The notes beneath the pieces were generated by a model, which worked only from the letters and a program-made list of their open reading frames with translations, searched no databases and was not told where the DNA came from. Below are positions 1,601 to 5,605 of a DNA stretch of 20,404 bases, piece after piece; positions within the stretch are counted from its first letter, which is position 1, and every line of letters begins with the position of its first letter. Source of the stretch: a virus; the IMG/VR virus record IMGVR_UViG_3300009183_000448, positions 1 to 20,404 of that record. One strand, 5' to 3'. Made by a program: the position numbers and the translations under genes.

Positions 1601-2286
1601 ATTTAAGAACCTTTAACCATGTTAAATTACCAGAATTAGATTTTGAATTGAAAGCGGTAACAACTGAAGATGGTAGAAGATATACAACACCGCAAGGAAA
1701 TGTGTATCCTTCTATCACTACTGTTCTTTCTGAATACAGTAAAAAAGGAATTCTTGAGTGGCGTGCAAGAGTTGGTAATGAACAAGCAAACAAAATAAGC
1801 ACAAAAGCAGCTCGCCGTGGTACTGCACTACATACTGTTTGTGAGAAATATCTATTGAATGAAATAGATTTTCAATATAGGCAATCACTAATGCCTGACA
1901 CTAAAGAATTGTTTCTTCAATTGAAATCTCATATTGATGATAATGTTGGCGATGTGTATGCAATTGAACAATCTTTGTATTCTGATAAATTGCGAGTTGC
2001 TGGTCGAAATGACTGTATCGCAGAATGGAATGGAAAGATATCTGTAATTGATTACAAGAGTGCTTCTAAAGAAAAGAATGAGAATTGGATACAGAATTAC
2101 TTTATGCAATGCACAGCATATGCAATTATGTTTGAAGAAATAACAGGTAAAGAAATTGAACAAATCGTTGTGGCAATTGCCGTTGAAGATGGCCAGCCAC
2201 AAATCTTTGTCCGAGAAAAATCTAAATATATTAAACAGTTAACAGAGTTTGTCGGCAATTATCACGGCAAACTCTTGACAGGTTGA
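1597..2286 (+). CDS. PD-(D/E)XK exonuclease, MGME1-like
   Basis: This 229-residue protein has the layout of phage exonucleases related to mitochondrial genome maintenance exonuclease 1. Residues 36-43 give YPSITTVL and residues 74-79 RGTALH. Glu124 precedes the core. Asp139 lies in VAGRND, and Asp152 with Lys154 in VIDYKSA. Gln171 is in QCTAYA. Asp139, Asp152 and Lys154 are the expected metal-binding and catalytic set. Family members cut single-stranded DNA ends; a role in processing replication or recombination intermediates, or in host DNA breakdown, is likely but inferred. The start overlaps the previous stop (ATGA). Its 3' end contains the -35 box of the tmRNA promoter. Confidence 0.87.
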   Translation: MNLRTFNHVKLPELDFELKAVTTEDGRRYTTPQGNVYPSITTVLSEYSKKGILEWRARVGNEQANKISTKAARRGTALHTVCEKYLLNEIDFQYRQSLMPDTKELFLQLKSHIDDNVGDVYAIEQSLYSDKLRVAGRNDCIAEWNGKISVIDYKSASKEKNENWIQNYFMQCTAYAIMFEEITGKEIEQIVVAIAVEDGQPQIFVREKSKYIKQLTEFVGNYHGKLLTG

Positions 2287-2303
2287 AGTTAGTTTGTTAT
2301 AAT
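2275..2303 (+). promoter_or_regulatory. consensus sigma70 promoter for the tmRNA-pqqA unit
   Basis: TTGACA at 2275-2280 and TATAAT at 2298-2303 are both exact consensus and are separated by 17 bases. A TG at 2295-2296 adds an extended -10 element. The start point should be near 2310, just before the tmRNA acceptor piece. The -35 box lies in the last codons of the exonuclease gene. A host-type promoter this strong implies early transcription by unmodified host polymerase. Confidence 0.88.
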
Positions 2304-2563: not shown

Positions 2564-2608
2564 GGTTTCGGTTGGTTTCCTCGTAACAGAATAACCAACC
2601 AATTTCAT
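2564..2608 (+). repeat. left copy of the degenerate direct repeat around pqqA (tmRNA coding-piece 3' hairpin)
   Basis: This copy contains a perfect 8-bp hairpin, GGTTGGTT (2570-2577) with AACCAACC (2593-2600), loop 2578-2592. It follows the tag and P5 helix, so it is probably the last structured part of the tmRNA coding piece. The sequence reappears after pqqA at 2716-2754. Aligning 2564-2596 with 2716-2748 gives 24 of 33 identical bases; after a 6-base gap, TTTCAT matches in both copies. Confidence 0.75.
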
Positions 2609-2628
2609 AACTAAAAAAAGGAATCAAT

Positions 2629-2703
2629 ATGAAATGGTCTACACCAACGGCAACGGATATGCGTTTCGGTTTTGAAATTACAATGTATATTGCAAATCGG
2701 TAA
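2629..2703 (+). CDS. pqqA: PqqA, peptide precursor of pyrroloquinoline quinone (24 aa)
   Basis: PqqA is the ribosomal peptide whose Glu and Tyr side chains are crosslinked by the radical SAM enzyme PqqE, with PqqD as chaperone, and then trimmed to PQQ. The frame encodes 24 residues, the usual PqqA size. It starts MKWSTPTATDMRFGFE and ends in IANR. The diagnostic Glu-x3-Tyr is E16-I-T-M-Y20, preceded by RFGF, as in bacterial PqqA with (R/L)xGxEVTxY. AAAAAAGGA lies 6 bases before the ATG. It is the first ORF after the tmRNA, with no obvious terminator between them. No other pqq gene is in the window, so host PqqB-E would have to mature it. PQQ serves methanol and other quinoprotein dehydrogenases. 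The match is to family knowledge, not a database search. Confidence 0.93.
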   Translation: MKWSTPTATDMRFGFEITMYIANR

Positions 2704-2715
2704 TATCTAATAAAT

Positions 2716-2754
2716 GGTTTCGATTGGTTCCCAGCATAGCGAATAACCTTTCAT
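2716..2754 (+). repeat. right copy of the degenerate direct repeat around pqqA
   Basis: GGTTTCGATTGGTT at 2716-2729 and GAATAACC at 2741-2748 repeat the end of the tmRNA coding piece (2564-2608), 152 bases downstream. The copy has lost the second half of the hairpin's 3' strand, so only a shorter stem can form. It lies between pqqA and the next gene. Confidence 0.7.
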
Positions 2755-2778: not shown

Positions 2779-3321
2779 TTGAAAAAGTTAAGTTTATTTT
2801 TGGCCACTTTGGCAATCAGTTCTACCGTAATGGCTCAAGGTTATGGTTCATTAGAATATTCTGATGAAACTAATCGTTCAACAAAGGCATCAAATATTAA
2901 AGAAGCCGTTGTTATTGGTACTAAAGATGGTTCTACCGATTATAGTATCAAAATGGAAAATAGCCAAACATCATTTGGTAATGGTTCTATTACTCAAGGC
3001 ATGGAAGTTCGTGTGAAGCAATCTATCGGTGCTTTTTATGTTGGCGGTCGTTTGGGTGAGAGAATTTCTAGCACGACAAATTTCAGCCACTATGCAGTTG
3101 ACGCAGGAGTTAAAATCCCTCTTGGTGCTGGTTTTACTGGTGATGTTGGTGCTCGTTATCGCAATGCGTTTGATACCACAAACAATTATCAAACAACCCG
3201 TGTTCATACAGCGGTAGGTTATGCACTCACTAAACAAGATGCAGTAGCTGTTCGTTGGAGTCGTTCATACGGCGATGAAGAAAAAGATGCTTGGCGTCTA
3301 CAATACACTCGTAGTTTCTAA
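2779..3321 (+). CDS. small outer-membrane beta-barrel protein with signal peptide
   Basis: The start is TTG at 2779, supported by a strong TAAGGAG 7 bases upstream and by the signal peptide it produces: MKK, a hydrophobic core, and an AxA-like STVMA-Q cleavage site near residue 19. The mature protein alternates polar and nonpolar residues in short strands with Gly-rich turns (VGGRLGERIS, VDAGVKIPLGAG, DVGARYRN, LQYTRSF). It ends in Phe, the usual C-terminal signal for BAM-mediated insertion. About 160 mature residues suit an 8-strand barrel. In a phage this could alter the infected cell's surface or permeability, or block superinfection; none of these is shown. Only a few comparable marine phage genes come to mind. 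Confidence 0.8.
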   Translation: MKKLSLFLATLAISSTVMAQGYGSLEYSDETNRSTKASNIKEAVVIGTKDGSTDYSIKMENSQTSFGNGSITQGMEVRVKQSIGAFYVGGRLGERISSTTNFSHYAVDAGVKIPLGAGFTGDVGARYRNAFDTTNNYQTTRVHTAVGYALTKQDAVAVRWSRSYGDEEKDAWRLQYTRSF

Positions 3322-4980: not shown

Positions 4981-5022
4981 GGCACGCCCGTCCATGGGTG
5001 TGCCTCCTTTAACAAAAAGGAG
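4981..5022 (+). promoter_or_regulatory. structured leader that sequesters the endolysin ribosome binding site
   Basis: GGCACGCCC (4981-4989) pairs with GGGTGTGCC (4996-5004), 9 bp with one G-U. Directly after it CTCCTTT (5004-5010) pairs perfectly with AAAGGAG (5016-5022), the Shine-Dalgarno of the endolysin, around a 5-base loop. An alternative stem GGGCG/CGCCC uses 4974-4978 and 4985-4989. The GC richness stands out in this AT-rich genome. An intrinsic terminator reading of the first stem plus TCCTTT is possible but the T run is poor. Confidence 0.65.
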
Positions 5023-5026
5023 AAAT

Positions 5027-5605
5027 ATGCAAAGCAACAGAATCATTATTGCTAGTATTTTTATGTCTTGCCTTTTATTTTTAGTGGCAATGACAGCACA
5101 GAGCAATCAAAAATATTTAATTCATGGTATTAAATTTAGTGAGTTAACACCACCAGCACAAAAACAAGTTGAATGTTTAGCTGAAAATATTTTACTAGAA
5201 GCTGGACATGAGAGTAGAGAAGGCCAAATTGCCGTTGGTATGGTCACAGTTAATCGTGTCGTATCCGGTAGATATGCCGATGATATATGTGATGTTGTAA
5301 AACAAAAGATTATTCATCCATCGGGTAAAGTTGTGTGTCAATTTTCTTGGGTATGTCAGCCATTCTTTACCTCAAAACTATTGACAATGAAGCACACTTC
5401 GTTGTATAATGACGTATTGAATTTATCAATTGATATTTTCCTAAACTATGATAAGTTGGTAGATGTTACAAAAGGCGCAACATACTATCATGCTGATTAT
5501 GTTAACCCCGGTTGGAAATTGCCAAAAACAACCGTAATAGGTCGCCACATCTTCTACATGAAGCCTGGTGATTTAGACAACAAGAAGGAATTTTCTGGAA
5601 TATGA
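5027..5605 (+). CDS. SleB-type cell-wall hydrolase with N-terminal signal anchor (endolysin)
   Basis: The ATG at 5027 follows AAAGGAG; an upstream in-frame ATG at 4994 would add 11 residues with KRR. Residues 6-24 form one hydrophobic segment without a clear cleavage site, like a signal-anchor-release endolysin. Residues 49-110 match the Hydrolase_2/SleB pattern: ECLAENILLEAGHES with likely catalytic Glu58, GMVTVNRV, DICDVV, CQFSW. The second family block is KGATYYHADYVNPGW (149-163) then IGRHIFYM (171-178). These enzymes cleave the glycan strand of peptidoglycan. It is the only apparent lysis gene here, and export by the signal anchor could make lysis partly holin-independent. The next ORF overlaps its stop. 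Confidence 0.87.
   Translation: MQSNRIIIASIFMSCLLFLVAMTAQSNQKYLIHGIKFSELTPPAQKQVECLAENILLEAGHESREGQIAVGMVTVNRVVSGRYADDICDVVKQKIIHPSGKVVCQFSWVCQPFFTSKLLTMKHTSLYNDVLNLSIDIFLNYDKLVDVTKGATYYHADYVNPGWKLPKTTVIGRHIFYMKPGDLDNKKEFSGI
5381..5410 (+). promoter_or_regulatory. consensus sigma70 promoter inside the endolysin gene
   Basis: TTGACA at 5381-5386 and TATAAT at 5405-5410 are exact consensus hexamers with an 18-base spacer. It could transcribe the downstream block of the small membrane protein, gp33 and gp59 separately from lysis. It lies within coding sequence, so chance occurrence must be considered. Confidence 0.6.

Follow-up and report, generated by a model that had tools for sequence, protein, structure and literature searches.

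Does a frame of 24 codons in a phage genome encode PqqA, the precursor peptide of PQQ, and, if so, what would a phage do with this single gene of a bacterial pathway? We followed this question in a window (the whole stretch of DNA that was analysed) of 20,404 bases with a GC content of 35%, which is itself a virus record. According to family scans, the window is a piece of a T4-like phage with genes for a gp59 helicase loader, an SSB, an exonuclease and baseplate proteins. Together with the presence of pqqA in complete isolates, these genes confirm that the frame sits in a phage, as the initial annotation had it.

A PqqA peptide encoded by a T4-like phage

The frame had been proposed to encode a PqqA-type peptide including the Glu and the Tyr that PqqE crosslinks, and a search with the Pfam profile had been set beforehand as a check. 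The peptide passes the cut-offs of both curated profiles, scoring 37.2 bits against PF08042 (Pfam PqqA; E 2.7e-9, gathering cut-off 21.1 bits) and 39 bits against the NCBIfam equivalog TIGR02107 (PqqA; E 4.9e-10, cut-off 20 bits). The crosslink site, a Glu and a Tyr three residues apart, is in place as E16 and Y20; in the numbering of Methylorubrum extorquens PqqA, it is Glu16 and Tyr20 that are joined by PqqE (PMC10906245). The good ribosome binding site ascribed to the frame is borne out by AAGGA six bases 5′ of the ATG (Table 1). The peptide has no match in the PHROGs. With a degenerate PqqA pattern, the window gives a single match against zero in 100 dinucleotide shuffles, and three further viral contigs (L118, L356 and L361) encode a peptide identical to that of the window. 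One of these, L361, has the same peptide yet is diverged elsewhere, its flanking proteins being 78–99% identical to those of the window. A chance open reading frame is ruled out by the two curated profiles, by selection and by recurrence.

Table 1. Features of the pqqA locus (positions in the window)
Feature	Position	Strand	Evidence and remarks
Permuted (two-piece) tmRNA, tag ANDSEYALAA	2263-2607	+	RF04321 151.5 bits, RF01850 147.6 bits, ARAGORN; directly 5′ of pqqA
Sigma-70 consensus promoter TTGACA-17-TATAAT, TG before -10	2275-2303	+	12/12 match; described as preceding the tmRNA
tmRNA 3′ hairpin	2564-2596		Copied in part behind pqqA
Shine-Dalgarno AAGGA	2618-2622	+	6 nt before the pqqA ATG; sequence
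pqqA, 24-aa PQQ precursor peptide MKWSTPTATDMRFGFEITMYIANR	2629-2703	+	Translation, PF08042, TIGR02107, own-record search
E16 codon of pqqA	2674-2676	+	Translation
Y20 codon of pqqA	2686-2688	+	Translation
33-nt sequence behind pqqA	2716-2748	+	73% identical to the tmRNA 3′ hairpin; repeat search
180-aa protein, signal-peptide-like start, outer-membrane-like	2779-3321	+	ORF; starts 75 nt after pqqA
Second perfect sigma-70 consensus promoter, 18-nt spacer	5381-5410		Inside cell wall hydrolase gene 4994-5605 (PF07486)

Upstream, pqqA adjoins a tmRNA. A two-piece tmRNA has reportedly been described earlier for the phage Melnitz, and ARAGORN called a tmRNA in 48 of 230 pqqA-bearing viral loci among the matches listed. 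Two perfect sigma-70 promoters were observed in the window compared to 0.05 per shuffle of the whole window. The first of these likely drives the tmRNA and, via read-through, pqqA; such read-through has to be assumed for pqqA transcription because the nearest perfect promoter lies 354 nt upstream, before the tmRNA. Besides the tmRNA, Rfam yielded nothing on the pqqA region, and a riboswitch or other additional RNA structure on pqqA was rejected, the fold z-score being −0.86. With the partial hairpin copy behind it, pqqA looks as if flanked on either side by a copy of the tmRNA end; in related phages, flank comparison reveals other stem-loops at the position of this repeat.

The downstream neighbour encodes an exported protein that matches no Pfam or PHROG family, is conserved in numerous contigs of T4-like phages from fresh water and possibly serves receptor masking. 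Its gene starts 64–76 nt after pqqA in several divergent contigs, as would fit another use of PQQ or of modified PqqA, for instance as a bioactive peptide or exported signal, perhaps involving the exported protein. We regard such a use as most unlikely, given that the exported-protein gene occurs without pqqA in most relatives (pqqA lies within 200 nt in nine of 53) and that annotated small methylophages hold pqqA beside quite different genes. The neighbour probably does not belong to the pqqA function.

A stand-alone gene under purifying selection

Family scans found no pqq gene among the window ORFs beside pqqA. PqqE was over cut-off in none of 60 pqqA-related virus records, and PQQ alcohol dehydrogenases, including methanol dehydrogenase, in none of 31 records with the window included, so that a viral methanol dehydrogenase beside pqqA was rejected for these records. 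Each of 30 records holds exactly one copy of pqqA. On the lack of PqqE over cut-off in the 60 records, bacterial contamination was likewise rejected as the source of viral pqqA. The sole contaminated case is most likely “Acinetobacter phage MD-2021a” (L007, CAKLQF020000010.1), where ppk, pqqB, pqqC, pqqD and a radical SAM gene surround pqqA and which we take for a bacterial contig within a phage collection.

Among the matches listed, pN/pS over unique coding sequences amounts to 0.134 for the subtype of the window and 0.115 for the methylophage subtype, values that are lowered by search patterns fixing the core and that rise to 0.45 and 0.26, respectively, outside the patterns, where they nonetheless stay below one. 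W3 and P6, which lie outside the search patterns, are invariant among the matches listed, and so is R24, which lies outside one search pattern, over six codons. PqqA patterns that exchanged the Glu for codons beginning with a letter other than G, or the Tyr for codons beginning with a letter other than T, had no match in 2.9 million viral contigs. As judged from these coding sequences, phage pqqA is under purifying selection and apparently maintained as a PQQ substrate.

A substrate carried without its enzymes is also what would be expected of an inhibitor. The phage peptide might act as a decoy that occupies PqqD and PqqE and lowers PQQ synthesis, thereby slowing host respiration or a competing metabolism. 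Loss of the reactive residues would then be expected in some lineages, but no such form turned up among the viral contigs, and the phage peptides retain the host consensus; we therefore consider a decoy very unlikely.

pqqA in unrelated phages

Looking for pqqA in related phage genomes, as envisaged in the initial annotation, was productive in both phage collections and metagenomic contigs. Searching 50,697 phage records with the window peptide (tblastn) found 12, nearly all of them methylophages, and the named carriers comprise four Melnitz strains, P19250A, Venkman, MEP301, MEP401, MEP402 and a spring-water podovirus; as MEP431–434 and phiMB624-A also exist among the named methylophages in the taxonomy, pqqA is not claimed for all methylophages. 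Most of the named carriers leave the gene without annotation, and in Melnitz (L002 5967-6062) and podovirus ctXG6705 (L006 2067-2195) an antisense hypothetical protein is wrongly annotated over it, in line with the prediction that usual gene callers miss it. Phage pqqA measures 69–78 bases; tiny, and either unannotated or masked by an antisense ORF, it has probably been missed repeatedly by surveys of auxiliary metabolic genes.

In IMG/VR, at least 120 stretches matched one degenerate DNA pattern and at least 119 another, and at least 230 pqqA loci were parsed; a Shine-Dalgarno-like motif precedes pqqA in 223 of 230 viral loci among the matches listed. A third pattern, VGMEINxYxCA, gave 22 matches, 18 of which are PqqA-like by length and composition. 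The viral contigs concerned (L249–L270) contain a PqqA type recalling that of alphaproteobacteria (MEINCYACAEL, MEINMYACAKQK), most with a ribosome binding site, and PqqE is absent in those that were tested. In another contig (L588), a PqqA-like frame with an altered tail, WTTPAATDMRFGFEITLYVMNC, in which E and Y are kept, follows about 1.4 kb after its match.

Clustering of contigs via shared ORFs (single linkage) merged nearly everything and was not used. By blastp, both TerL and capsid proteins are mutually unrelated between P19250A, Venkman together with podovirus ctXG6705, MEP301 and MEP402, while 12 kb of the T4-like Melnitz have one ORF in common with MEP402 and none with the other methylophages compared. 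Given the unrelated terminases and capsids of the four groups and the nearly complete lack of common genes in Melnitz, at least five phage lineages carry pqqA. This breadth suggests that viruses commonly provide for PQQ synthesis while infecting their hosts.

An insertable cassette

In contig L575, from a related phage, this tmRNA end leads directly into the exported-protein gene, without pqqA between them. Since this tmRNA–membrane-gene junction represents an empty site, pqqA behaves as an insertable cassette. Three contigs (L562, L572 and L580) have an own promoter shortly 5′ of pqqA and a stem-loop after its stop, and a perfect promoter lies 71–72 nt (once 76 nt) before the pqqA start in 13 loci among the matches listed. 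The promoter and stem-loop flanks and the empty site imply that pqqA is gained and lost as a unit of about 170 bases. Across all phages, promoters are no more frequent upstream of pqqA than upstream of other phage genes, and a dedicated early promoter was rejected as a general feature of pqqA, being confined to a subset of the T4-like relatives.

Among gp59 relatives with at least 5 kb of upstream sequence, fetched regardless of pqqA, the gene is nearby in two of 23, although relatives without a nearby copy may carry pqqA elsewhere in the genome. This patchiness counts against the explanation that we favour below, a functional gene supplying precursor. It would suit a hitchhiker, that is a host fragment acquired near a tmRNA integration site without benefit to the phage, as would the adjoining tmRNA and the partial copy of its 3′ hairpin behind pqqA. 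A passenger of this kind is nevertheless quite improbable in view of the purifying selection, the Shine-Dalgarno-like motifs in nearly all copies and the gains in at least five lineages, which include small phages with pqqA between other genes.

Host of the phage and methanol oxidation

The initial annotation assumed a Methylophilaceae host whose methanol oxidation is sustained by the phage. The window peptide carries the residues DMRFGFEITMYIANR of Comamonadaceae, other Burkholderiales and Thauera, and the EITMYIANR type occurs, in named genomes, in Comamonadaceae, Rhodoferax, Hydrogenophaga, Limnobacter, other Burkholderiales and Thauera. Its best bacterial matches are identical at 19–23 of 24 residues (Thauera 23, Comamonadaceae 21) compared to at most 16 of 24 for 67 host peptides of the Methylophilaceae type. 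With such a peptide, neither the Methylophilaceae host nor the tie to methanol oxidation is established, and the host of the window phage is probably a betaproteobacterium from outside the Methylophilaceae.

A supply that serves methanol oxidation in particular, with Methylophilaceae as hosts, is a narrower form of the explanation favoured here, with which its weight overlaps. The named isolates with pqqA infect Methylophilaceae, and Lake Baikal T4-like phages with a methanol dehydrogenase, which share the GC content of 35% with the window, were assigned to the same family (PMC7678222). For the window, this version is unlikely because its peptide is of the other-Burkholderiales/Thauera type, an objection that is tempered by Melnitz, according to which a methylophage peptide may drift from the type of its host.

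The genomes with the tmRNAs closest to that of the window belong to betaproteobacteria with a permuted tmRNA, and pqqA was found in none of the 12. Comamonadaceae-type and Methylophilaceae genomes with a tmRNA called by ARAGORN have the one-piece form. As a lone phage pqqA would serve no purpose in a host that cannot make PQQ, the pqqA-less genomes matched by tmRNA count against a supply function. Several candidate hosts encode PQQ alcohol dehydrogenases over cut-off.

Probable supply of a consumed precursor during infection

Every PQQ made costs one PqqA, the consumed component of the pathway, whereas the enzymes serve again. With host transcription stopped by the phage, PqqA would therefore be the first part to fall short. 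During infection, PqqA synthesis would be driven by a strong promoter of the host type; host PqqD would bind the phage peptide, host PqqE would crosslink its E16 to Y20, and a host protease, PqqB and PqqC would complete PQQ. Phage pqqA would thus keep PQQ flowing to the periplasmic quinoprotein dehydrogenases of the host and hence sustain respiration, the benefiting enzyme being set by the host: a XoxF-type methanol dehydrogenase, another alcohol dehydrogenase or a sugar dehydrogenase. We consider it probable, on genomic grounds, that the window contains a functional phage-borne pqqA, a small insertable cassette topping up the consumed precursor for host PqqBCDE. Of the earlier proposal, the extra substrate for the host PQQ pathway stands as the best reading, and the restriction to methanol oxidation in Methylophilaceae does not.

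Host genomes offer an indication of how much precursor matters. In Methylophilaceae, 149 of 150 genomes contain pqqA, with up to 12 copies, while the other pqq genes (pqqBCDE) are as a rule single-copy and orphan pqqA copies are present (PMC4109929). Up to 12 pqqA genes against a single pqqBCDE set suggest that the dosage of PqqA is under selection in hosts with a high PQQ demand. In Acetobacter, overexpression of pqqAB raised PQQ by 29% and that of the full operon eightfold (PMC7936290); this small gain compared to the full operon argues that the precursor is not always limiting.

More generally, precursor-peptide supply might be an almost unnoticed phage strategy, in which unrelated phages of methylotrophs, other betaproteobacteria and alphaproteobacteria would have gained stand-alone pqqA cassettes independently, matched to the peptide type of each host, because PqqA runs out. 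We see the case for this generalization as evenly balanced. The gene for the PQQ-dependent XoxF ranks with the most highly expressed ones in marine methylotrophs (PMC5120137). If phages of methylotrophs do routinely bring the PQQ precursor, the oxidation of methanol and alcohols in marine and lake waters would be coupled to viral infection. Cultured phage–host pairs are on hand with Melnitz and Venkman on Methylophilales H5P1, and the published host medium includes PQQ at 1 nM.

Comparison with known systems

As a metabolic gene that lies in an undoubted phage genome and is kept by selection, the window pqqA qualifies as an auxiliary metabolic gene. Whether phage pqqA had been reported before was left undecided by the initial annotation; such a report exists, as pqqA was proposed as an auxiliary metabolic gene of the T4-like Lake Baikal phage population VP_266, together with a methanol dehydrogenase (Coutinho et al, 2020; PMC7678222), and phage pqqA is also listed in a 2026 sediment survey (PMC13188868). 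Term searches gave no mention of pqqA in the Melnitz, MEP301 and MEP401/402 papers, and we found no report of its breadth among phages in the open literature, most subscription journals and preprints lying outside this coverage. Phage pqqA itself is thus already known, and the notable part is its wide, convergent and unannotated occurrence.

The window peptide resembles bacterial PqqA (PF08042, TIGR02107) in its length, W-x-x-P start, RFGFE-x3-Y core and Glu16/Tyr20 spacing. The genes differ in that the window pqqA is phage-borne, has no PqqE over cut-off in the 60 related virus records and does not adjoin pqqBCDE, as bacterial pqqA usually does, though this neighbourhood is not defining. VP_266 is likened to the window by description rather than by peptide sequence, both being T4-like phages with 35% GC and pqqA; whereas a methanol dehydrogenase was reported for VP_266, the window and 30 related records have none. 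The extra pqqA copies of Methylophilaceae are, like the phage gene, orphans apart from pqqBCDE that can be read as a precursor dosage device, but they are chromosomal and encode another peptide subtype, MWT..EMRFGFEVTMYV[MC]N[KR]. A parallel in function is offered by cyanophage psbA, a phage auxiliary metabolic gene replacing a part of the host machinery that is spent sooner than the others. While psbA encodes a reaction-centre protein and phage pqqA a consumed precursor peptide of 24 amino acids, both would replace a fast-spent component of the host.
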